A model generated the notes under the pieces. The model did not search any database. It saw only the letters and a list, made by a program, of their open reading frames with translations, and was not told the origin of the DNA. Both the position numbers and the translations under genes were made by a program. This document shows, in pieces, positions 45,588 to 58,637 of a stretch of DNA of 64,000 nucleotides; the first letter of the stretch is position 1; each line of letters starts with the position of its first letter. The stretch comes from Hoeflea marina (GTDB lineage Bacteria; Pseudomonadota; Alphaproteobacteria; Rhizobiales; Rhizobiaceae): NCBI RefSeq assembly GCF_003182275.1, contig NZ_QGTR01000002.1, positions 310,001 through 374,000 on the forward strand. The letters are read 5' to 3'.

Positions 45588-46481
45588 TCACAATCCGGGC
45601 TTGTAGTCGTCGATGACCTTGCCTCGGAACAGGGGCAGGACGTTCAGTTCCTGCAGCAGCTGGTCGTCGCTGACGCCGTCCTCCTGCAGCGTTGTCCACA
45701 CCCGGAAGCCGGTCAACTGGTAGGCGCCGAAGGACGTGATCATTGCCACGTCGGAGGCATCCGTCCCGCGCACCATCAGGATGCGTCCGATCCGCGGCTT
45801 GTTGTAGCGGGCGTCGACGGTGTGCCACTGACCGCCGAGATACACCTCGAACCAGGCGCAGAAATCATCAAAGCCGGTGTCGGGCACGCCGATGTCCCCG
45901 AGATAGCCGCTGCAGTAGCGGGCAGGGATGTTCATCGCCCGGCACAGGCTGACGCCGAGATGGGCGAAATCCCTGCAAACGCCGGTTTTCTCGCCCAGCA
46001 CGTCGACGGCGGTCTTGTCGGGCCGACCGAACTTGTAGCCGAAGGTGACGTGGTTGTGGACGAAGGTCGAGATGGCCTGCACCCGGGGCCAGCCTTCAGG
46101 AACCTGGGCGAACTGCTGCCAGGCGAAATTCGAAAGACTGTCGGAATCGCAGTAGCGGCTGGCGGTGAGGAAATTCAGCGTCTCAGAGGGCAGGTCCTCG
46201 ATGCGGTGCTGGACGGCGTAGGTCGCCGGCTGGTCGGGGATGCCGTCCACTTCGGCCACGCAGTCGGACCAGAACGTCGTCGAGCCGTAGGGCGCCACGG
46301 TGCGCGTGATGCGGTTGCCGAACTGGTCGTTGTACTCGCTGGTCGGATTGGACGAGGATGAGCGGACGTAATCCGAACCGATGAGGCGCCCGGCAAACGA
46401 CGGATGCACCGACAGCGCCAGCAGCATCGGCACGGGTTCCGGGCAGTTGACCGTGATTTCGAAACCAAAGCGGATCTTCAT
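45588..46481 (-). CDS. Transglutaminase-like cysteine protease-fold protein with altered histidine
   Basis: 297-residue cytoplasmic transglutaminase-fold protein. The cysteine motif is GVCRDFAHLGVSLCRAM (residues about 175-190) and the aspartate is in HTVDARYN. The usual histidine of the Cys-His-Asp triad, normally in an xHAW motif, is Cys here: FDDFCAWFEVYLGGQW. The following NKPRIGRILMVRGTDASDVA is typical of this subgroup. The ATG at 46479-46481 with an aggaaa ribosome binding site is chosen. It lies near, but not in, the ATP-grasp/transglutaminase cluster at 48.7-55.4 kb. Whether it is catalytic is open. Confidence 0.83.
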   Translation of the reverse strand: MKIRFGFEITVNCPEPVPMLLALSVHPSFAGRLIGSDYVRSSSSNPTSEYNDQFGNRITRTVAPYGSTTFWSDCVAEVDGIPDQPATYAVQHRIEDLPSETLNFLTASRYCDSDSLSNFAWQQFAQVPEGWPRVQAISTFVHNHVTFGYKFGRPDKTAVDVLGEKTGVCRDFAHLGVSLCRAMNIPARYCSGYLGDIGVPDTGFDDFCAWFEVYLGGQWHTVDARYNKPRIGRILMVRGTDASDVAMITSFGAYQLTGFRVWTTLQEDGVSDDQLLQELNVLPLFRGKVIDDYKPGL

Positions 46482-48503: not shown

Positions 48504-48715
48504 TGCTGTGCTCCGGTTGCTGGTCCTGCCCCGAGTGTCGCGGCCCCGCCCTAAGGAAGGGTTGCCGTCGCGTGCCGGGTAATCGCCCCCGAATGGCAGT
48601 TTCCCCTAACCCGCGCTGAAGAACTCGCTATAGTGGGACTGCAATGTGGACAGCGCCGTTTGCACCATGCATCCTGCAGTGCACAGATATTCCTCGGGCA
48701 AGTCCGGAAACATTC

Positions 48716-51700
48716 ATGTCAATTCTCGCCAGCATCCACCACCTGACCCATTACAAATATGATCGTCCGGTGTCGCTCGGACCGCAGGTCATACGGCTGC
48801 GGCCGGCGCCGCACAGCCGCACCCGGGTGGTGTCGCATTCTTTGAAGGTCACGCCGGACAACCATTTCGTCAACTACCAGCAGGATCCCTACGGCAACTG
48901 GCTGGCGCGCTATGTCTTTCCCGACCCGGTGACCGAGTTCAAGATCGAGGTGGATCTGGTCGCCGACATGACGGTCTACAATCCGTTCGACTTCTTCGTC
49001 GAGGATGCGGCGGAGTTCTGGCCGTTCGACTATGACGCAGACATCAGCCCGGACCTGGTGATCTACCGCACGCCGGAGCCGGCCGGCCCGAGGCTGCAGG
49101 CGTTTCTCGACACGATTCCGCGCGACCGGACGCGCAGCGTCGACTTCGCCGTCGGCCTCAACACGCGGCTTGCCAACGAGATCGGCTACGTCATCCGCAT
49201 GGAGCCCGGCGTGCAGACGCCGGAGGAAACCTTTGACACCGGCTGCGGCTCCTGCCGCGACACCAGCTGGCTGCTGGTGCAGGTGCTGCGCCATCTCGGC
49301 TTCGCCGCGCGCTTCGTCTCCGGTTATCTGATCCAGCTCAAGCCCGATCTCGTCGCCATCGACGGCCCGCCCGGCACCGACCACGATTTCACCGATCTGC
49401 ATGCCTGGACCGAGGTCTACATCCCCGGCGCCGGCTGGATCGGCCTTGACCCGACCTCCGGCCTTCTCACCGGCGAAAGCCACATCCCGCTGGCGGCGAC
49501 GCCGCATTACCGCACCGCCGCGCCGATTTCCGGCCTGGCGAGCTTTGCCGAGGTCGAATTCGGCTTCGAGATGAATGTCACCCGCGTCGCCGAACATCCC
49601 CGCATCACCAAACCGTTCAGCGACGAATCCTGGAGTGCGCTCGATGCGTTGGGGCAGGCGGTCGACAAGCGCCTCGCCGAGGGCGACGTGCGGCTGACCA
49701 TGGGCGGCGAGCCGACCTTCGTCTCCATCGACGATTTCGAAAGCGAGGAATGGAACACCGCCGCCGTCGGCCCGCAGAAGCGCATTCTCGCCGATCAGCT
49801 GATTCGCCGGCTCCGGGATCGCTTCGCGCCGGGCGGCTTCCTGCACTACGGCCAGGGTAAATGGTATCCGGGCGAGACGCTGCCGCGCTGGACCTTTTCG
49901 CTCTACTGGCGCCGCGACCAGAAGCCGATCTGGCAGGACGTGAGCCTGATTGCCCACGAGGGCATGGACACCGGCAAGGCCACGCCGGAAACGGCCGAGG
50001 CACTGTTGTCGGCCATTGCCGGCCAATTGGGGGTCGAGACCGAAAACGTGCTGCCTGCTTTCGAGGATCCGGGCGAGTGGCTGCTCAAGGAAGGCAATCT
50101 GCCAGACAATGTGACGCCGGAGAATTCCAAGCTCACCGATCCGGAGGAACGCCACCGCATCGCCACGGTGTTTGCCCGCGGCCTGACCAAACCATCGGGC
50201 TTCGTCCTGCCGGTTCAGCGCTGGCAGTCGAAAGCCTCCGGCCACGGCTGGCGGTCGGAGAAGTGGAAGACGCGGCGCGGCCATGTCTTCCTGGTGCCCG
50301 GAGACAGCCCGGTCGGCTACCGGCTGCCGCTCGGCGCGCTGCCCTATGTGCCGCCTGCGCAGTATCCCTACACTCACCCCGCCGATCCGACCTCGCTGCC
50401 GCGCGACTTCGCCGACGCGCCCGCAACAGAAGCCGCGGCCGGGAAGATGCCGGTCGAGGATGTCGCGCACGATCAGACGGTGGCGCATTTCACAGCGTCG
50501 GAGCCGGTCCAGGATCGGGTCGAACAGACATTGGGCGAGCTCGGCGGTGCCGTGCGCACGGCGATCTCTGTCGAGCCCCGCGACGGCCGGCTCTGCGTGT
50601 TCATGCCGCCGGTCGAGCGCATCGAGGATTATCTGGAACTGATCGCCGCCGCCGAGAAATCCGCGGCCGGGCTCGGCCTGCAGGTGCATATCGAGGGCTA
50701 CGCTCCGCCGCATGATCCGCGCATGAACGTCATCCGCGTCGCGCCGGATCCGGGGGTCATCGAGGTCAATGTGCATCCCGCCGCCGGCTGGGCGGACTGC
50801 GTCGCCATCACCCAGGGGGTCTATGAGGAGGCGCGCCAGTGCCGTCTTGGCGCCGAGAAGTTTATGATCGACGGCCGCCACACCGGCACCGGCGGCGGCA
50901 ACCATGTCGTGGTCGGAGGCGCCACGCCGATGGACAGCCCGTTCCTGCGCCGGCCTGACCTGCTGGCGAGCCTCATCCTGCACTGGCAGCGCCATCCGAG
51001 CCTGTCCTACCTGTTCTCCGGGCTGTTCATCGGCCCGACCAGCCAGGCTCCGCGCGTCGATGAAGGCCGCCATGACAGCCTCTACGAACTCGAGATGGCA
51101 CTGGCGCAGATCCCGGCCCCGGACGCCGGCACGCCGCCGCTGCCGTGGCTGGTCGATCGGCTCCTGCGCAACCTGCTCGTGGATGTCACCGGCAACACGC
51201 ATCGGGCGGAGATCTGCATCGACAAGCTCTACTCGCCCGACGGCCCCACCGGCCGGCTTGGCCTGGTCGAGTTCCGCAGCTTCGAGATGCCGCCGGATTC
51301 GCGCATGAGCCTCGCCCAGCAACTGCTCATCCGCGCCATCATTGCCCGCATGTGGGAGAGGCCGCTCAAGGGTCGCTTCACGCGCTGGGGCACGACGCTC
51401 AACGACCGCTTCATGATGCCGCATTTCATCTGGGAGGATTTCCTCACAGTGCTCGACGACCTGTCCGAGCACGGTTTCCCGATGCGCCCGGAATGGTTCG
51501 AGGCGCAGGCCGAGTTCCGCTTTCCGTTCTGCGGCGAGGTCGAGTACGAGGGCGTCAAGCTGGAACTGCGGCAGGCGCTGGAGCCCTGGCACGTGCTGGG
51601 CGAGACCGGTGCCATCGGCGGCACGGTGCGCTACACGGACTCCTCGGTCGAAAGGCTTCAGGTCAAGCTGTCGGGGGCCGATGCGACGCGCTACATCGTC

Positions 51701-52069
51701 ACCTGCAACGGTCGGCGCATGCCGATGATCGCCACATCGACCAGCGGCGTTTCGGTTTCCGGTGTGCGCTACAAGGCCTGGCAGCCGGCCATGGCCCTGC
51801 ATCCGGTGCTGCCGGTTGACGCGCCTTTGACCTTCGACATCTACGACACATGGTCGAACCGCTCGCTTGGCGGCTGCGTCTATCATGTCGCCCATCCCGG
51901 CGGCCGCAGCTACGATACCTTCCCGATCAACGGCAACGAAGCCGAGGCCCGCCGTCTGGCGCGGTTCGAGGCTCGCGGCCACACGCCGGGGAGCTTCGTG
52001 CCGCCGCCGGAACAGCCGCACCCGGAGTTCCCGATGACCCTCGACCTGCGCCGCGCGCCGGGCATCTGA
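48716..52069 (+). CDS. Transglutaminase-DUF2126 fusion, predicted amidoligase/peptidase-like enzyme
   Basis: 1117-residue protein. Residues about 1-85 are the transglutaminase N-terminal beta domain ([20 protein letters not shown]). Residues about 150-265 are an intact transglutaminase core with Cys in [14 protein letters not shown], His in DLHAWTEVY and Asp in GLDPTSGLL. Residues about 310-1115 are DUF2126, with [13 protein letters not shown] near its start, the [10 protein letters not shown] loop and a C-terminal [11 protein letters not shown] motif; this domain has been predicted to be a glutamine-synthetase-like (COOH-NH2) ligase. The ATG at 48716 is chosen, 2 bp before the next gene's region of 5' coupling. 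No signal peptide. First gene of a three-gene operon. The whole system lacks a known product. Confidence 0.88.
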
Positions 52070-52071
52070 CA

Positions 52072-54474
52072 ATGCCCGGCAAAGCCAATCGCAAGCGGGC
52101 CGGATCGCATGCCTTTCTCCAGGGATACGTCCCGAGCGAAGGCGTGCCCGACGAGCTGTTTGACTTTGGCGGCGAGATGCGGCCCGGCTGGTCCGGGCTG
52201 ATCGAACATCTCGCCTCGCAAAAGGCCGACCAGCTCGAACGGAGCTTTGCCCGCGGACGCCAGTATCTGCGCGACGCGGGCGTCTTCTTCCGCCAGTACG
52301 GCGCCGGCGATCAGGGCGTGCGTGACTGGCCGCTCAGTCCGGTGCCGGTGGTTCTGACGGACATGGAATGGGCCGAAATCTCCGCCGGGCTGATCCAGCG
52401 CGCCGATCTCCTGGAGGCGGTCGCCGCCGATATCTACGGCGACAACAGTTTGGTCGCCCAGGGCCGGATCCCTGCCGGCCTGGTGGCCGGAAACCCGGAA
52501 TGGCTGCGCCCGATGGTCGGCGTCAGGCCCGCATCGGGCCATTTCCTGCATTTTGTGGCCTTTGAGATCGGGCGGCGTCCGGATGGCCGATGGTGGGTGC
52601 TGGGCGACCGGACGCAGGCCCCGTCGGGAGCCGGCTATGCGCTCGAAAACCGCGTGGCCTCCATGCGCAGCTTTTCGGGATATTATCGCAACGCCAATGT
52701 CGTGCGGCTGGCCAGCTTCTTTCGCGCCTTCCGCGACGGGCTCAACGCGCTCAAGCAGGATCCCTCCGGCCGGGTCGGCATCCTTTCGCCGGGTCCGATG
52801 ACCGACACCTATTACGAGCATGCCTATATCGCACGCTATCTCGGCATGATGCTTCTCGAGGGGGAAGACCTCACGGTGGAAAGCGGCAGGCTGATGGTCC
52901 GCACGGTGTCCGGTCTCCAGCCGGTGAGCGTGCTGTGGCGGCGGCTGGATTCGGTGTGGGTCGACCCGCTGGAACTGGATGAGAGTTCGCGCCTGGGCAC
53001 GCCGGGCCTGCTGACGGCGGTCCGCAACGGCAATGTCACCATGATCAATGCACTTGGCACCGGGGTGCTGGAAAGCCGCGCCTTCCTCGCCTTCCTGCCG
53101 CGGCTGAGTGAAGTGCTGCTGGGCGCTCCGCTCAGGATGCCCAATGTTGCGACCTGGTGGTGCGGTGGCGCCGATGAGCGCGCCCATGTGGCCGGGCACG
53201 CCGACCGGATGATGATCGGTCCGGCCAATTCGATCCGCCTGCCGCTCGAGCCCGGCGAAGACACCGCGCTGGGCGGCGCGGCGGCGCAGCGCAAGGGACG
53301 CGATGTCGCCGCCTGGCTGGAGGCCGAGGGCGACAGGCTCATCGGCCAGGACCAGGTGACGCTGTCGACCACGCCGGCCTGGTTCGAGGGCCGGCTGGTG
53401 CCGCGCCCCATGAGCATCCGCGTGTTCCTGGCGCGCACGGAAGACGGCTGGCAGGTGATGCCCGGCGGCTACGCCCGGCTTGCCGCCGAACAGGACCCGT
53501 CGGCAGTGTCGATCCGCCAGGGCGGGTCGGTTGCCGATGTCTGGGTGGTCTCCGACAAGCCGGTGGCGGCCGACACCATGCTGCATCACAGCACCGAGAC
53601 CTTCGTGCGCAGCCTTCCCGGCATCCTGCCGAGCCGCGCGGCTGACAACCTGTTCTGGCTTGGCCGTTATGTCGAGCGCGCCGAGGGTACCATGCGCCTG
53701 GTGCGGGCCTACAATGGCCGCATCGATGAAACCCCGGCTGGCGGCTCGCCGCTGATGGACAGTCTCAAGGAATTCCTCGAGGACCGCGACGTCGATGTGG
53801 AGGAGGGGCTGCCGCGGCATCTCGTCCGCACCCTGTCCTCCGCCGTCAACAGCGCCAGCCACATCCGCGATCGCTTCTCCGTCGATGCCTGGGCGTCGCT
53901 CACCGACCTGCAGCGCACGCTCGCCAAGATGTCGCCGAAAGTGGTGCCCGGCGATGACGCCGCCGCCGCCATGGGCGTGCTCTTGCGCAAGATCACCGGC
54001 TTCTCCGGACTGGTCAACGACAACATGTATCGCTTCACCGGGTGGCGGTTCCTGACGCTTGGCCGCTCGATCGAACGGGCGCTGGCCATGGCCAGCCTGC
54101 TCAGCGTGTTCGCCGACCGCGACGCCAGGGAAGGCGGTTTCGATCTCTGCGTCGAGGTGGGCGACAGCGTCATGAGCCATCGTCGCCGCTATTCGGTGAC
54201 CACCAGCCGCGAGACGGTCATCGATCTGCTGGCCCTCGATCATCTCAATCCGCGTTCGATCGCCTACCATGTCGACGAGATCCGCAACCAGATCAGCCTG
54301 CTGCCGGGCGCCGAGGTCAACGGACAACTCTCCGGCCTGTCGCGCTCGGCGCTCAAGCTCTACAGCGACTTGACGCTGCACACGCCGCAAACGCTCGATG
54401 GCGAGGCGCTGGGCCGGATCCTCCAGGACATCTACACCCTGACCGGCGATGTGGCCGGGACCTATCTGAGCTGA
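52072..54474 (+). CDS. Circularly permuted ATP-grasp (DUF404/407) plus alpha-E (DUF403) protein
   Basis: 800-residue protein starting 2 bp after the DUF2126 stop. Residues about 60-470 match the circularly permuted ATP-grasp type, with RQYLRDAGVFFRQYG, FEIGRRPDGRWWVLGDRTQA and PSGAGYALENR, then GILSPGPMTDTYYEHAYIAR. Residues about 515-795 are the alpha-E domain: LPSRAADNLFWLGRYVERAE is its hallmark, and the rest is helical. ATP-grasp enzymes form amide bonds from a carboxylate and an amine with ATP; the alpha-E domain may hold the acceptor. In many genomes the two domains are separate genes, here fused. Product unknown. Confidence 0.88.
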   Translation: MPGKANRKRAGSHAFLQGYVPSEGVPDELFDFGGEMRPGWSGLIEHLASQKADQLERSFARGRQYLRDAGVFFRQYGAGDQGVRDWPLSPVPVVLTDMEWAEISAGLIQRADLLEAVAADIYGDNSLVAQGRIPAGLVAGNPEWLRPMVGVRPASGHFLHFVAFEIGRRPDGRWWVLGDRTQAPSGAGYALENRVASMRSFSGYYRNANVVRLASFFRAFRDGLNALKQDPSGRVGILSPGPMTDTYYEHAYIARYLGMMLLEGEDLTVESGRLMVRTVSGLQPVSVLWRRLDSVWVDPLELDESSRLGTPGLLTAVRNGNVTMINALGTGVLESRAFLAFLPRLSEVLLGAPLRMPNVATWWCGGADERAHVAGHADRMMIGPANSIRLPLEPGEDTALGGAAAQRKGRDVAAWLEAEGDRLIGQDQVTLSTTPAWFEGRLVPRPMSIRVFLARTEDGWQVMPGGYARLAAEQDPSAVSIRQGGSVADVWVVSDKPVAADTMLHHSTETFVRSLPGILPSRAADNLFWLGRYVERAEGTMRLVRAYNGRIDETPAGGSPLMDSLKEFLEDRDVDVEEGLPRHLVRTLSSAVNSASHIRDRFSVDAWASLTDLQRTLAKMSPKVVPGDDAAAAMGVLLRKITGFSGLVNDNMYRFTGWRFLTLGRSIERALAMASLLSVFADRDAREGGFDLCVEVGDSVMSHRRRYSVTTSRETVIDLLALDHLNPRSIAYHVDEIRNQISLLPGAEVNGQLSGLSRSALKLYSDLTLHTPQTLDGEALGRILQDIYTLTGDVAGTYLS

Positions 54475-54478
54475 GGCC

Positions 54479-55396
54479 ATGCGCTACGACATCACGCTCA
54501 CCATGACCTACAGCTATGATTCACCCGCCGCCGGCGTGCGCCAGTTGGCGCATCTGCTGCCGCTCGATCTCCTCGACTTCGACGGGGCCGGCGGCTCCGG
54601 CCAGCCGGTTCCGCGCCAGCGTCTGATTGCCGGACGCCTGGATTTCGACCCGGAGCCGGCGGTCCGCGAGGACCGATTCGACTTCTTCGGCAACGCCATC
54701 AGCGAAGTGGCCTTCCACGAGGCGCTCGACGAGATCGTCATCCGGCTGCAGGCCCGGGTCGAGGTCAACAAGGTGTCCGCCCCGATCCCGGCGACGATAC
54801 CGCTCGATGGCCTCGTCGCCGCTGTCGCCGCATGCTGGGACCTCGGCCCACGCTCGCCGGTGCATTTCATCTATCCGTCGCCCCGGGTGCCCTTCGATCC
54901 GGCGATCGCCGACTATGCGCGGGGCTGCAGTCAGCCCGGCGCATCGGTGGCCGGCGTCGTCGAGGCGTTGGGCCGGCGGCTCAACGTGGACATGAAATTC
55001 GATGCCGAGGCCACGACGGCCAGCACGCCGATCAGCGAATCCTTCGCCCAGCGTCATGGCGTTTGCCAGGACTTCTCCCAGATCATGATTTCTGCCCTGC
55101 GCAGCCTCGGCATTCCGGCGGGCTATGTCTCCGGCTTCCTGCGAACCCTGCCGCCACCGGGCAAGCCGCGCCTTGAGGGCGCAGACGCCATGCATGCCTG
55201 GGTCTGCGCCTGGTGCGGGCCGGACACCGGCTGGGTCGAATACGATCCGACCAATGCGACATTTGCCGGCACCGACCATGTGGTCGTTGCCTATGGGCGG
55301 GACTATGCCGACGTGGCACCGGTTCGCGGCGCGATGCGGATTGCAGGCAGTCATACGAGCGACCAGGCGGTCGACGTCATTCCGCTGACGGACTGA
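54479..55396 (+). CDS. Transglutaminase-like protein of the ATP-grasp/alpha-E cluster
   Basis: 305-residue protein with a transglutaminase N-terminal beta domain (residues about 1-110, MTYSYDSPAAGVRQLAHLLP) and an intact core: Cys in QRHGVCQDFSQIMISALRSL, His in DAMHAWVCAW, Asp in WVEYDPTNA. No signal peptide, so it acts in the cytoplasm. It follows the ATP-grasp/alpha-E gene by 4 bp and shares its operon. Members of this set are predicted to cleave or transfer the amide products of the ligases (prediction from gene-neighbourhood studies, not experiment). Confidence 0.88.
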   Translation: MRYDITLTMTYSYDSPAAGVRQLAHLLPLDLLDFDGAGGSGQPVPRQRLIAGRLDFDPEPAVREDRFDFFGNAISEVAFHEALDEIVIRLQARVEVNKVSAPIPATIPLDGLVAAVAACWDLGPRSPVHFIYPSPRVPFDPAIADYARGCSQPGASVAGVVEALGRRLNVDMKFDAEATTASTPISESFAQRHGVCQDFSQIMISALRSLGIPAGYVSGFLRTLPPPGKPRLEGADAMHAWVCAWCGPDTGWVEYDPTNATFAGTDHVVVAYGRDYADVAPVRGAMRIAGSHTSDQAVDVIPLTD

Positions 55397-55412: not shown

Positions 55413-56378
55413 TCAGCCTTTACCGGAAAGGCAATCGCTGAGCGATTTGGCCAGGCCGCGGATCAGCTCGAAATAGAGATCCGGTCCGTCTGTCAGGGTT
55501 GCGCCGAGCGGGTCGAGCACGCCCGATTTGGCGACCGAGCCCTCCAGGACCACCGAGACCAGCTTCGGCTCGAATTGCGGCTCGGAGAACACGCATGTGG
55601 CGCCCAGCGAATCGATCTTGGCGCGGATCTCGTCGACCCGCCTGGCGCCGGGCAACAGCTCCGGATTGACGGTGATGGAGCCAGAAGCCTGCATGCCGAA
55701 GCGTTTTTCGAAGTACTGATAGGCGTCGTGAAAGGCGATGAAGCCCCTGTCCTTGACCGGATCCACCGTCGCCTGCACTTCGGTGATCAGATTGTCGAGC
55801 TTGGCCAACTCCGCCTCGGCATTGGTCTTGTAAATGGCGGCATTTGCCGGATCGGCTTCCGAGAGTGACGCTTCGATCGCCTGCACCATCACTTTCGCGT
55901 TGACCGGATCGAGCCAGAAATGCGGATCGACCTCCTCGTCATGATGGTGCTCTTCCGCGGCGGCCCCGTCGGCAGGCTGGGTGTCGTCGGCGTGGTCATC
56001 ATGATCGTGCGGTTCGAAGGTTCCGCCTTCGCGCGGCGCGAGCTTGATCAGGCCCGGCAGGTCCTCGAGTTCAACCGCCTTGGCGTCGGCTGCGATGGTG
56101 GTGATCGGTTTGGTGAGAAACGCTTCCATGTCGTGGCCGATCCAGACCACCACGCGGGCATTTTGCAGAGCCTCGGCCTGTGAGGGCTTCAGGCTGTATG
56201 TATGCGGTGAGGCGGCGCCCTCGACGATCAGTTCCGGGGAACCTACGCCGGCCATGACGGCTGCGACCAGCGAATGGATCGGCTTGATCGAGGCCAGCAC
56301 CAGCGGCTCCGCATGCAGCCCGGTTGTGCTCGCGGCAAGCGCGGAGGCGCCAAGCAGCAAATTGCGCAGATAGGTCAT
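55413..56378 (-). CDS. znuA: Zinc ABC transporter periplasmic binding protein ZnuA
   Basis: 321-residue high-affinity zinc-binding protein. A signal peptide ends near LHAEPL. Metal ligands expected of ZnuA are seen in GAASPHTYSLKPSQ, the HFWLDPVNA motif and FIAFHDAYQYF. The central His/Asp-rich loop (HDHDDHADDTQ, later EEHHHDEEVD) is the usual zinc-gathering loop. The ATG at 56376-56378 is divergent from znuC across 102 bp holding Zur-like sites. Confidence 0.95.
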   Translation of the reverse strand: MTYLRNLLLGASALAASTTGLHAEPLVLASIKPIHSLVAAVMAGVGSPELIVEGAASPHTYSLKPSQAEALQNARVVVWIGHDMEAFLTKPITTIAADAKAVELEDLPGLIKLAPREGGTFEPHDHDDHADDTQPADGAAAEEHHHDEEVDPHFWLDPVNAKVMVQAIEASLSEADPANAAIYKTNAEAELAKLDNLITEVQATVDPVKDRGFIAFHDAYQYFEKRFGMQASGSITVNPELLPGARRVDEIRAKIDSLGATCVFSEPQFEPKLVSVVLEGSVAKSGVLDPLGATLTDGPDLYFELIRGLAKSLSDCLSGKG

Positions 56379-56392
56379 GAATTTCTCCGTTG

Positions 56393-56433
56393 GTAATGTT
56401 ATATGATTACACAATTGCGTAATGGTATAACGT
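56393..56433. promoter_or_regulatory. Candidate Zur-binding region between znuA and znuC
   Basis: Two half-sites of Zur type, ATGTTATAT at 56396-56404 and, on the other strand, ACGTTATAC (56425-56433), lie in the AT-rich middle of the divergent promoter. The first is part of an imperfect palindrome gtaat-N8-attac (56393-56410). Zinc-loaded Zur, encoded at the end of the znuCB operon, would repress both directions. Confidence 0.65.
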
Positions 56434-56480
56434 GTGGCATAGAGTGACGCAAGACGTTCCGGACATTTTTTGGACATTTC

Positions 56481-57383
56481 ATGTTGCAACCAACCGATCC
56501 CCTCGTGCAGTTGACTTCCGCAGGCATCGAGCGATCCGGCCGCTGGCTGGTGCGCGGCGTCGACCTGTCCGTCCGCTCCGGCGAGATCGTCACCCTGATC
56601 GGGCCGAACGGCTCGGGAAAATCCACCACTGCCAAGATGGCGCTCGGCGTGCTCAAGCCCAGCGAGGGCTCCGCCGTGCGGCGCGAGGGCCTCAGGGTCG
56701 GCTATGTGCCGCAGAAGATCAGCGTCGACTGGACGCTGCCGCTGACCGTCGCCCGGTTCATGAGCCTGACCGGCAAGGTCGCGCCCGCCGATGCCGTCCG
56801 CGCCATGGAAGCGACCGGCATAATGCATCACCAGCACGCCGAGGTGCGCAACCTGTCTGGCGGCGAGTTCCAGCGCGCCATGCTTGCCCGTGCCATCGCG
56901 CGCAAGCCCGACCTGATGGTGCTCGACGAGCCGGTGCAGGGGGTCGATTTCAGCGGCGAGATCTCGCTTTATGACCTGATCAAGCGCATCCGCGACGAGA
57001 TCGGCTGTGGTGTTCTGCTGATTTCCCATGATCTGCATGTGGTCATGGCCGCCACCGACAAGGTCATCTGCCTCAACGGCCATGTCTGCTGCCAGGGCAC
57101 TCCCACGGCCGTTGCCGAGAGCGCCGCATACAAGCAGCTCTTCGGACCACGTGCCTCCGCGACGCTGGCCGTCTACGAACACGACCACGACCACACCCAT
57201 CTCGCCGATGGACGAGTCCGCCACGCCGATGGCTCGATCACCGAGCATTGTCATCCCGATGACGGCCACCACCACGATCATGCCGGTCACGATCACTCAG
57301 GGCATGATCATTCAGGTCATGACCGCTCCCATTCACATGGCCATGCGTCCGGCAACACAGGCGGAGGCGTCTCCAATGCTTGA
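56481..57383 (+). CDS. znuC: Zinc ABC transporter ATP-binding protein ZnuC with long His-rich tail
   Basis: 300-residue ATPase. Walker A GPNGSGKST, signature NLSGGEFQRAML, Walker B LMVLDEPVQGV and the switch His in LLISHDLHV are intact in the first about 230 residues. The last about 70 residues are unusually rich in His and Asp (EHDHDHTHLAD, then CHPDDGHHHDHAGHDHSGHD), with repeated GHDHS units, and probably bind zinc in the cytoplasm. The gene's end overlaps znuB by 8 bp. Confidence 0.94.
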   Translation: MLQPTDPLVQLTSAGIERSGRWLVRGVDLSVRSGEIVTLIGPNGSGKSTTAKMALGVLKPSEGSAVRREGLRVGYVPQKISVDWTLPLTVARFMSLTGKVAPADAVRAMEATGIMHHQHAEVRNLSGGEFQRAMLARAIARKPDLMVLDEPVQGVDFSGEISLYDLIKRIRDEIGCGVLLISHDLHVVMAATDKVICLNGHVCCQGTPTAVAESAAYKQLFGPRASATLAVYEHDHDHTHLADGRVRHADGSITEHCHPDDGHHHDHAGHDHSGHDHSGHDRSHSHGHASGNTGGGVSNA

Positions 57384-58212
57384 TGATTATTTCACCCGCG
57401 CCATTCTCGCCGGCATCGGCATGGCCGTTGTCGCGGGTCCCCTCGGCTGCTTCATCGTCTGGCGCCGGCTGGCCTATTTCGGCGACACGCTCTCGCATGC
57501 GGCGCTGCTCGGCGTCGCCATGGCCTTCCTGTTCCAGATCAATGTCACGCTGGCCGTCTTCGTGGTCTCCGCAGCGGTCTCCGTGGCGCTGGTGCTTTTG
57601 CAGCGCCGGGCGACGCTGTCCTCGGATGCGCTGCTCGGCCTGCTGTCACATTCCTCGCTGGCGCTCGGCCTTGTGGTGCTGTCGTCCATGACTTGGCTGC
57701 GCATCGACCTGATGGGGTTTCTCTTCGGCGACATCCTGTCGGTCTCCAGGCTCGACATCGGCATCATCTGGGGCGGGGGGCTGGCGGTGCTGGCGGTGCT
57801 AGTGCTGATCTGGCGACCGCTGTTCGCCGCCACCGTCAACCAGGAACTGGCGGAAGCAGAAGGCATGAACCCTGACCGGGCCAATTTCATCTTCATGCTG
57901 CTGATGGCCACCGTCATAGCCATTTCGATGAAGATAGTCGGCGTCCTGCTGATCACCGCGATGCTGATCATTCCCGCGGCCGCCGCCCGCCGCTTTGCCT
58001 GCGGGCCCGAGCAGATGGCGATCATCGCGATCCTCATGGGCGCCACCTCGGTCGGGCTTGGTCTCGGCGCCTCGCGCGAATGGGACACCCAGTCGGGTCC
58101 GGCCATCGTGGTCGCTGCCCTGGGGTTGTTCCTCATCAGCCTTACACCGCTGGCGGCATGGCTGGCAAACATCAGGATTTCCAAGGCGGCTGCGCCGGCA
58201 GCCAGGGAGTAG
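57376..58212 (+). CDS. znuB: Zinc ABC transporter permease ZnuB
   Basis: 278-residue membrane permease with eight or nine hydrophobic segments. Conserved regions are GPLGCFIVWRRLAYFGDTLSHAALLGVA near the N-terminus and MKIVGVLLITAMLIIPAAAA in the ABC-coupling region. The ATG at 57376 lies within the znuC tail. Followed 2 bp later by zur. Confidence 0.94.
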   Translation: MLDDYFTRAILAGIGMAVVAGPLGCFIVWRRLAYFGDTLSHAALLGVAMAFLFQINVTLAVFVVSAAVSVALVLLQRRATLSSDALLGLLSHSSLALGLVVLSSMTWLRIDLMGFLFGDILSVSRLDIGIIWGGGLAVLAVLVLIWRPLFAATVNQELAEAEGMNPDRANFIFMLLMATVIAISMKIVGVLLITAMLIIPAAAARRFACGPEQMAIIAILMGATSVGLGLGASREWDTQSGPAIVVAALGLFLISLTPLAAWLANIRISKAAAPAARE

Positions 58213-58214
58213 CC

Positions 58215-58637
58215 ATGAGCGACCATCACCACGATCACCATCACGACACCGCCGCACTGACCAAGAACCAGTCGCTGGTCATGGGGCAATTGTCGAGTGC
58301 CAACGGGCCGCTGAGCGCATATACGATCCTCGACCGGCTGCGCGAGCACGGCTTTCGCGCGCCTCTGCAGGTCTACCGCGCCCTCGACAAGCTGGTCGAA
58401 TTCGGCATGGTGCACCGCCTCGAGAGCCTCAATGCCTTCGTCGCCTGCCGCCAGCCCGGCTGCGACACCCACGAAACCATCGCCTTCACCATCTGCGAGA
58501 CCTGCGGCCAGGTGGCCGAACTCTCCGACCCTGAACTGGCCGATCACCTCAAGGCGCTGGCGGCCGCCACCGGCTTTGTGCTGAAGAAGTCGACGGTGGA
58601 GCTGCGCGGACTCTGCCGCGCCTGCGGTCGCGCCTGA
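58215..58637 (+). CDS. zur: Zinc uptake regulator Zur (Fur family) with N-terminal His cluster
   Basis: 140-residue Fur-family repressor. The helix-turn-helix is LREHGFRAPLQVYRALDKL; the structural zinc site is formed by CETCGQ and GLCRACGR. It begins MSDHHHDHHHD, a His cluster that may help sense or hold zinc and is not usual in Zur. Last gene of znuCB-zur, so it controls its own expression through the sites upstream of znuC (inference). Confidence 0.93.
   Translation: MSDHHHDHHHDTAALTKNQSLVMGQLSSANGPLSAYTILDRLREHGFRAPLQVYRALDKLVEFGMVHRLESLNAFVACRQPGCDTHETIAFTICETCGQVAELSDPELADHLKALAAATGFVLKKSTVELRGLCRACGRA

Follow-up and report, generated by a model that had tools for sequence, protein, structure and literature searches.

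A transglutaminase-DUF2126 operon of Hoeflea marina encodes an ATP-grasp/Alpha-E fusion that looks like a conserved pseudo-ligase

A three-gene operon and its ATP-grasp fusion

We describe a three-gene operon of Hoeflea marina that lies in a stretch of 64,000 nucleotides (the window: positions 310001-374000 of contig NZ_QGTR01000002.1, here G000:C2) of a 5.26-Mb genome in 20 contigs. All three genes are on the plus strand of the window. The first, D (48716-52069; 1117 amino acids, aa), encodes a transglutaminase (TGase)-DUF2126 protein with Pfam matches to Bact_transglu_N (2.9e-26), Transglut_core (7.2e-17) and DUF2126, described there as 'Putative amidoligase enzyme' (1325.9 bits); its start agrees with the conserved N-terminus of relatives, and an alternative in-frame ATG lies upstream at 48644. 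The second, F (52072-54474; 800 aa), is a fusion of a circularly permuted (CP) ATP-grasp domain (CP_ATPgrasp_2, PF14403; 4.6e-130, 434.3 bits) to an Alpha-E domain (PF04168; 1.7e-54, 186 bits), and the third, t3 (54479-55396; 305 aa), is a stand-alone TGase (Transglut_core, 3.5e-16; Bact_transglu_N, 1.6e-14). These matches are all above the Pfam cut-offs, and none of the three proteins has a match in NCBIfam. A first-pass annotation of this DNA had described such a set with gaps of 2 bp (D/F) and 4 bp (F/t3), and both the gene calls and the domain matches bear it out.

To judge the state of the ATP-grasp site in F, we compared it with the ATP-grasp of the Anbu operon in the same genome and with 3n6x, the putative glutathionylspermidine synthase Mfla_0391, a CP_ATPgrasp_2 protein and the closest solved structure. 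The residues by which a catalytically active CP-ATP-grasp is recognized, namely a Glu/Asn dyad for metal and acyl-phosphate, a glycine-rich loop with a Lys, an Asp and a further Asn, are all replaced in the window F. It reads VLGDR for VLEDN, with G178 and R180 at the places of the dyad Glu and Asn (52603-52611), PMSIRVF for HVDLRPF and SIRQGG for NSSQGG, and it lacks the KxxxGSGG loop, the affected region being approximately residues 378-402 (53203-53277). Unlike F, 3n6x keeps VLEDN, the VVKEVQGSGGYGML loop, RHVDLRPF and VNSSQGGG.

The same losses run through the family. A first count covered 45 F and 10 free (separately encoded) ATP-grasps, which we call A; its repeat covered 26 A and 152 F (150 distinct sequences), of which 135 come from the class, named and family sets and 17 from other Pseudomonadota. 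The dyad Glu is present in 26/26 A and in 2/152 F, and the dyad Asn in 26/26 A and in no F, where Arg (138) or His (10) mostly takes its place; both dyad residues are missing in 150 of the 152. The loop Lys is found in 26/26 A versus 17/152 F, the Asp of RHVDLRPF in 26/26 versus 0/152, and the Asn of VNSS in 26/26 versus 1/152. Five other residues (R199, R298, D306, N334 and R453 in the numbering of A) are invariant in all 178 proteins. The labels F and A were assigned by phmmer score and length, independently of the residues tested, and no long fused protein closer to A, which would have been labelled 'A?', came from the 178 loci. The dyad is likewise lost in 11/11 F that were found without D. 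In three of these D-less proteins (L241, L242 and L244) the region of the glycine loop is deleted outright. For the fungal ATP-grasp Cp1B, replacement of R139, D141, E163 or N165 by Ala abolishes or strongly attenuates activity (PMC12568646; this and the other papers are cited here for their accessible passages), and we equate E163 and N165 with the dyad lost from F by motif, not by alignment.

Judged by its residues, then, the fused ATP-grasp of F has lost what is needed for ATP use and is predicted to be non-catalytic. The first-pass annotation had made this domain the builder of the amide, a role that hardly fits the loss of dyad and glycine loop in the window F and in nearly all fused homologues examined. 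Since F lacks the residues needed for ATP use, the real ligase probably lies elsewhere.

The protein has nevertheless been maintained. Across 11 pairs of related loci the ratio of nonsynonymous to synonymous substitution rates (dN/dS) of F is 0.05-0.26, with similar values for D and t3, which indicates that F is under purifying selection and shows no decay. Purifying selection together with the lost ATP site makes F look like a conserved pseudo-ligase. In a quick, unrooted tree of 89 rows, F and the free ATP-grasps are split by one branch with a support of 100 (SH-aLRT, the Shimodaira-Hasegawa-like approximate likelihood-ratio test), a topology compatible with one loss event in F. Profile (434.3 bits) and fold both place F among the CP_ATPgrasp_2 proteins: its AlphaFold model has a predicted template-modelling score (pTM) of 0.86, with a helical Alpha-E part, and its best Foldseek match is 3n6x (E 4.2e-31, TM on target 0.85; phmmer of F against 3n6x, 8.3e-66). 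Cp1B (9cjn; Foldseek 3.4e-7) resembles F in overall fold and is, unlike F, an active ligase, the residues important in Cp1B being, by motif, those that F has lost (PMC12568646).

The Alpha-E domain of F (residues 519-793; 53626-54450) retains the ER motifs and the helical fold of its family. Residues W529, R532, R536, R542, G664, E668, P727 and R728 are invariant in 45 F, and the same positions are kept in 22 or 23 of 23 free Alpha-E proteins. This domain had been proposed to carry the acceptor; its own motifs are kept, and no carrier site was identified by the analyses that we ran.

DUF2126 and the transglutaminase-fold domains

Both TGase-fold proteins retain a Cys-His-Asp triad, in line with the earlier description of an intact transglutaminase. 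In D the triad (49253-49450) consists of C180 (49253-49255), H229 (49400-49402) and D245 (49448-49450), each conserved in 174/174 homologues; in t3, a stand-alone TGase-fold Cys enzyme, it consists of C196 (136/136), H239 (136/136) and D256 (134/136). Open reading frames (ORFs) entered these conservation counts if they were at least 900 aa long for D and shorter than 480 aa for t3. In two assemblies (L085 and L088) the D gene is interrupted by stop codons, and it was kept as it stands there.

The DUF2126 domain (PF09899) occupies residues 278-1112 of D (49547-52051) and is itself a predicted amidoligase, a point overlooked when the operon was credited with one ligase. Its residues E332, E660, E683, N685, H730, E832, E852 and R854 are each conserved in a fraction of the 174 homologues that rounds to 1.0, within a long list of polar residues kept in at least 97% of the sequences. 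Some of these may be equivalent to residues of glutamine synthetase (GS), an equivalence that is our own reading rather than the outcome of an alignment. The first-pass annotation had staked its case on catalytic residues being kept at both the DUF2126 and the ATP-grasp sites; loss was not seen in the 174 DUF2126 homologues, where the catalytic residues are putative ones, and it was plain in the ATP-grasp. The AlphaFold model of D (pTM 0.76) gave a strong Foldseek match to 3isr and weak ones to several glutamine synthetases (GlnA), of which the best, 5dm3, has an E value of 1.6e-3, a probability of 1.00 and a query TM of only 0.12; as the Foldseek output came without ranges, the domain of D to which each match belongs is our assignment. 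Given the Pfam description and this weak GS-like structural hint, DUF2126 would be the likeliest ligase of the operon and a better candidate than F.

A further TGase gene, P0004 (window 45588-46481, minus strand), lies 2.2 kb upstream on the other strand. We considered it as a fourth component and rejected it, because the orthologue in relatives is not near D (for example, contig 10 versus contig 50 in G754, and approximately 1.2 Mb apart in G744). P0004 has a TGase fold with Cys at the place of the catalytic His (FCAWFEV), as do 11 examined orthologues from other genomes of the genus, and two remoter relatives have Ser or Asn there; going by these sequences, it is a conserved family of His-less TGases.

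Distribution, partner genes and nitrogen control

We found D in 59/385 sampled genomes of the class (the H. marina genome counted), in 120/398 sampled genomes of the phylum and in each of 12 additional genomes searched within the genus. The consecutive order D-F-t3 occurs at 44/58 loci of the class sample, 70/80 named loci (nearly all alphaproteobacterial), 12/20 loci of other Pseudomonadota and 18/20 loci of the family and order; some loci stop at contig edges, some records are in two sets, and the alphaproteobacterial label is missing from a few named records. Sinorhizobium fredii USDA 205 (L118) is one of the carriers of D-F-t3. From the frequency of D and the order across the four sets, the grouping is not due to chance; the arrangement is widespread, and the window operon is an ordinary case of it.

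To find recurrent neighbours, we clustered the ORFs of at least 30 aa in the 4-kb flanks of 149 loci, window included, by blastp at 1e-6. Among the 25 largest clusters two recur across clades, free A (21 loci) and free Alpha-E, here E (20 loci), while the others, judged by eye, look like lineage synteny or antisense shadows. No carrier or export gene is among the recurrent neighbours, which agrees with what had been noted for the window itself. The small peptide gene that had been suggested as something to look for beside homologous operons was not found in these flanks; none recurs among the 25 clusters, which very short or fast-changing peptides could escape. In the window, genes for metal uptake lie 3' of t3 (55413-58637: ZnuA on the minus strand, an ABC ATPase, an ABC-3 permease and a Fur-family regulator), and they too are absent from the clusters that recur across clades.

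Outside the class, A and E lie within the fetched stretch at 15/20 loci. The gene order in Burkholderia cenocepacia (L283) is A-E-t7-D-F-t3, where t7 is the TGase of the partner set. On a plasmid of Enterobacter roggenkampii (NZ_CP116251.1, 5597-14794; L284) the operon reads A-E-D-F-t3, and genes for an arsenate reductase and an IS6 transposase lie within approximately 5 kb of it. Among the matches listed, a full free ATP-grasp is present in 54/59 genomes with D versus 88/326 without D, a comparison that ignores phylogeny and in which weak or fragmentary free matches are absent from both counts. Of the five other D genomes, three have fragments that look free-type (57/59 in total), and two, which are 84% and 63% complete, have none. 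All 11 genomes with a D-less F have a free ATP-grasp.

In H. marina the partner set is an Anbu operon at G000:C2 447050 to approximately 451050, about 82 kb from D-F-t3. Its fourth protein matches the Pfam family Proteasome and is named Anbu by context. The Anbu gene and ureG converge, their ends one base apart (L004:4645-7784; G000:C2 444645-447784), and ureE, ureF and ureG adjoin the operon. There is no Anbu in the window operon, which is hence not an Anbu operon proper, and at class-sample loci Anbu was found within the fetched DNA of 4/58.

An Anbu operon comprises ATP-grasp, Alpha-E, transglutaminase and Anbu, and the prediction concerning such sets is credited to Iyer et al. 2009 in PMC6376114 and PMC5666114, from which we know it. 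With a CP-ATP-grasp, an Alpha-E domain and a Bact_transglu_N TGase encoded side by side, the window gene set belongs to the kind predicted there. The three family types are common to it and the Anbu operon; it differs in lacking Anbu, in having DUF2126, and in an ATP-grasp that is fused to Alpha-E and has no ATP site, whereas the ATP-grasp of the Yersinia Anbu operon releases phosphate from ATP (PMC6376114). RimK/RimB and Rlo likewise pair an ATP-grasp protein with a peptidase, and Rlo also includes an inactive TGase-domain protein. In the accessible text of that source, Alpha-E and DUF2126 are not described for these systems, RloC is likened to RimK, and the protein of Rlo said to be inactive is the TGase and not the ATP-grasp (PMC12239564).

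The published link to nitrogen comes from related gene sets. In an ntrC mutant of B. cenocepacia H111 under nitrogen limitation, genes I35_5080-5083, described as DUF404/DUF407, DUF403, TGase and large TGase, were down 8.2, 9.4, 9.4 and 6.0 fold (PMC5491218). By order and description, not by sequence, these correspond to A-E-t7-D of L283, which is another strain; the published data thus place the first four genes of the run under NtrC/sigma-54, while F and t3 do not figure in the accessible text. Unlike the window genome, in which the two halves are some 82 kb apart, B. cenocepacia has both in one run. In L283 a sigma-54-like site (AGGCACGTTCCTTGCA) with 11/12 consensus letters lies 66 bases before the start of A, this start being taken from the related locus L179, where a 10/12 site lies at the same place. 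In Pseudomonas putida, nitrate versus ammonium raised Anbu by 4.44 log2 and the CP-ATP-grasp by 3.99 log2 (PMC8050072), and abundances in marine metagenomes tie urea metabolism to three domains, Alpha-E, ATP-grasp and Bact_transglu_N (PMC3597751). An association with COG2308 in Sinorhizobium meliloti was too indirect and was not used (PMC8407117). By analogy with these cases, the window operon may be under nitrogen control as well; a role under nitrogen stress, for which the regulation published for two other lineages speaks, would extend to it.

Upstream of D lies an element, GTGGACA (48646-48652) followed by TGCAT (48668-48672) on the plus strand, both blocks of which are invariant in 10 aligned sequences of the genus, the window included (3/12 relatives were left out of the alignment). 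Its spacing is unlike that of sigma-54 sites and it has no match to a named promoter class; we regard it as a candidate promoter or operator.

Readings of the operon's role

The reading that we prefer, and which we consider evenly poised between being right and wrong, is of a bipartite system in the cytoplasm, connected with nitrogen limitation, that forms and hydrolyses amides (isopeptide-like) and has D-F-t3 as its accessory half. A carboxylate would be activated and the amide formed by DUF2126 of D, by the intact, separately encoded A, or by both. F would be a non-catalytic subunit of the complex that does not use ATP and serves in substrate binding, scaffolding or regulation, a role suggested by the persistence of the fold, of other invariant residues and of Alpha-E while the ATP/Mg site is gone. 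The amide group would be removed, trimmed or moved by the TGase-fold domains of D and t3, acting as Cys amidohydrolases or transferases, and the whole would serve in nitrogen stress. That DUF2126 works as a ligase, that F is non-catalytic and acts with A, what the substrate is, that the location is cytoplasmic and that nitrogen controls this particular operon are the parts of this reading that we infer.

Several observations weigh against it. The GS-like assignment of DUF2126 is a modest one, drawn from a Pfam label and weak Foldseek matches; in the Foldseek output for D, unrelated proteins appear at similar E values, with probabilities of at most 0.12, and hhalign of the D alignment against the organism's own GlnA and its GCS2-family protein returned nothing. 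DUF2126, at approximately 830 aa, also differs from the GS chains among the matches listed, which have approximately 350-490. The units are separable: F and t3 form a two-gene unit without D in 11 of 18 genomes (L237-L247), the 18 having been chosen for unusual or multiple ATP-grasp matches, and D occurs in at least three genomes (G091, G160 and G334) with no F within 20 kb, each having among the matches listed a single ATP-grasp, of the free type. The D-less units suggest a tighter pairing of F with t3. A lies beside D-F-t3 at only 9/58 class-sample loci, and 88/142 genomes with a free ATP-grasp among the matches listed have no D, from which it follows that A does not need D. In Yersinia, pull-downs gave no specific interaction between Anbu and the proteins of its operon (PMC6376114). 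The published nitrogen control that we found covers beta- and gammaproteobacteria (PMC5491218, PMC8050072); sigma-54 control of the window operon was considered and is unsupported at the locus, where the best -24/-12 site before D scores 6/12, at -244. A literature search also returned no biochemistry on any D or F.

A more specific account of F is possible and is put forward tentatively. A duplicated ATP-grasp and Alpha-E may have fused and lost their ATP chemistry early, leaving F as a dedicated pseudo-ligase subunit. As a substrate receptor or an allosteric regulator, F would now be the non-catalytic partner either of DUF2126 or of the intact ATP-grasp/Alpha-E, within an amide-tagging cycle of nitrogen starvation that is widespread in Pseudomonadota. 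In the open-licence literature, covered in part through listings and passages, we found no conserved dead fused ATP-grasp with an intact paralogue, a subject on which Iyer et al. 2009 may touch, and no paper pairing DUF2126 with transglutaminase.

D-F-t3 could instead function on its own, degrading amides or modifying proteins, and have no more than ancestry, and perhaps regulation, in common with A-E-t7-Anbu. This strikes us as rather unlikely, though it accommodates much of the distribution: F-t3 without D in 11 genomes, two sets that are mostly unlinked in the class sample, and A without D in 88 genomes among the matches listed. It has to contend with the presence of A in at least 54/59 genomes with D (57 with fragments) and in 11/11 with a D-less F, and with A and Alpha-E being recurrent neighbours across clades.

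Some pseudokinase-like folds have other nucleotide-dependent activity, and by analogy the fused ATP-grasp could be active through different residues, such as the near-invariant Arg that replaces the Asn, or have another nucleotide-dependent activity. We regard this as improbable. The Arg in 138/152 F and the strong conservation of other polar residues do suggest that the pocket is still selected, within a fold that is confidently predicted (pTM 0.86); a new activity would, however, be expected to conserve a new loop, whereas in F the glycine loop varies or is missing, no more than 17/152 have the Lys, and further ATP-site residues were lost together with it.

The making or editing of a peptide natural product, graspetide-like or another ribosomally synthesized and post-translationally modified peptide, is very unlikely: the natural-product ligase Cp1B (9cjn; PMC12568646) is among the folds resembling F, but no precursor, exporter or tailoring gene recurs across clades among the 25 largest flank clusters, with the proviso that very short or poorly conserved peptides could escape. 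The proposal of the first-pass annotation, in which the ligase is the ATP-grasp of F, the acceptor sits on Alpha-E and the product is trimmed by two Cys proteases, deserves the least credence, for despite the 434-bit CP_ATPgrasp_2 match and the intact TGase triads it is largely refuted by the residue test (both dyad residues missing in 150/152 F, the Asn in all), and no peptide gene was found beside the operon. Its statement that no product is established stands as far as the accessible literature goes.

Returning to the bipartite system with F as a pseudo-ligase, the distinction matters for how these genes are approached. If the fused ATP-grasp is dead, its assay with amino-acid mixes, as had been suggested, would fail for an uninteresting reason. 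Genes for Alpha-E, ATP-grasp and transglutaminase are common in bacteria, whether Anbu accompanies them or not, and a conserved pseudo-ligase beside an active paralogue would give a handle on what the system binds.

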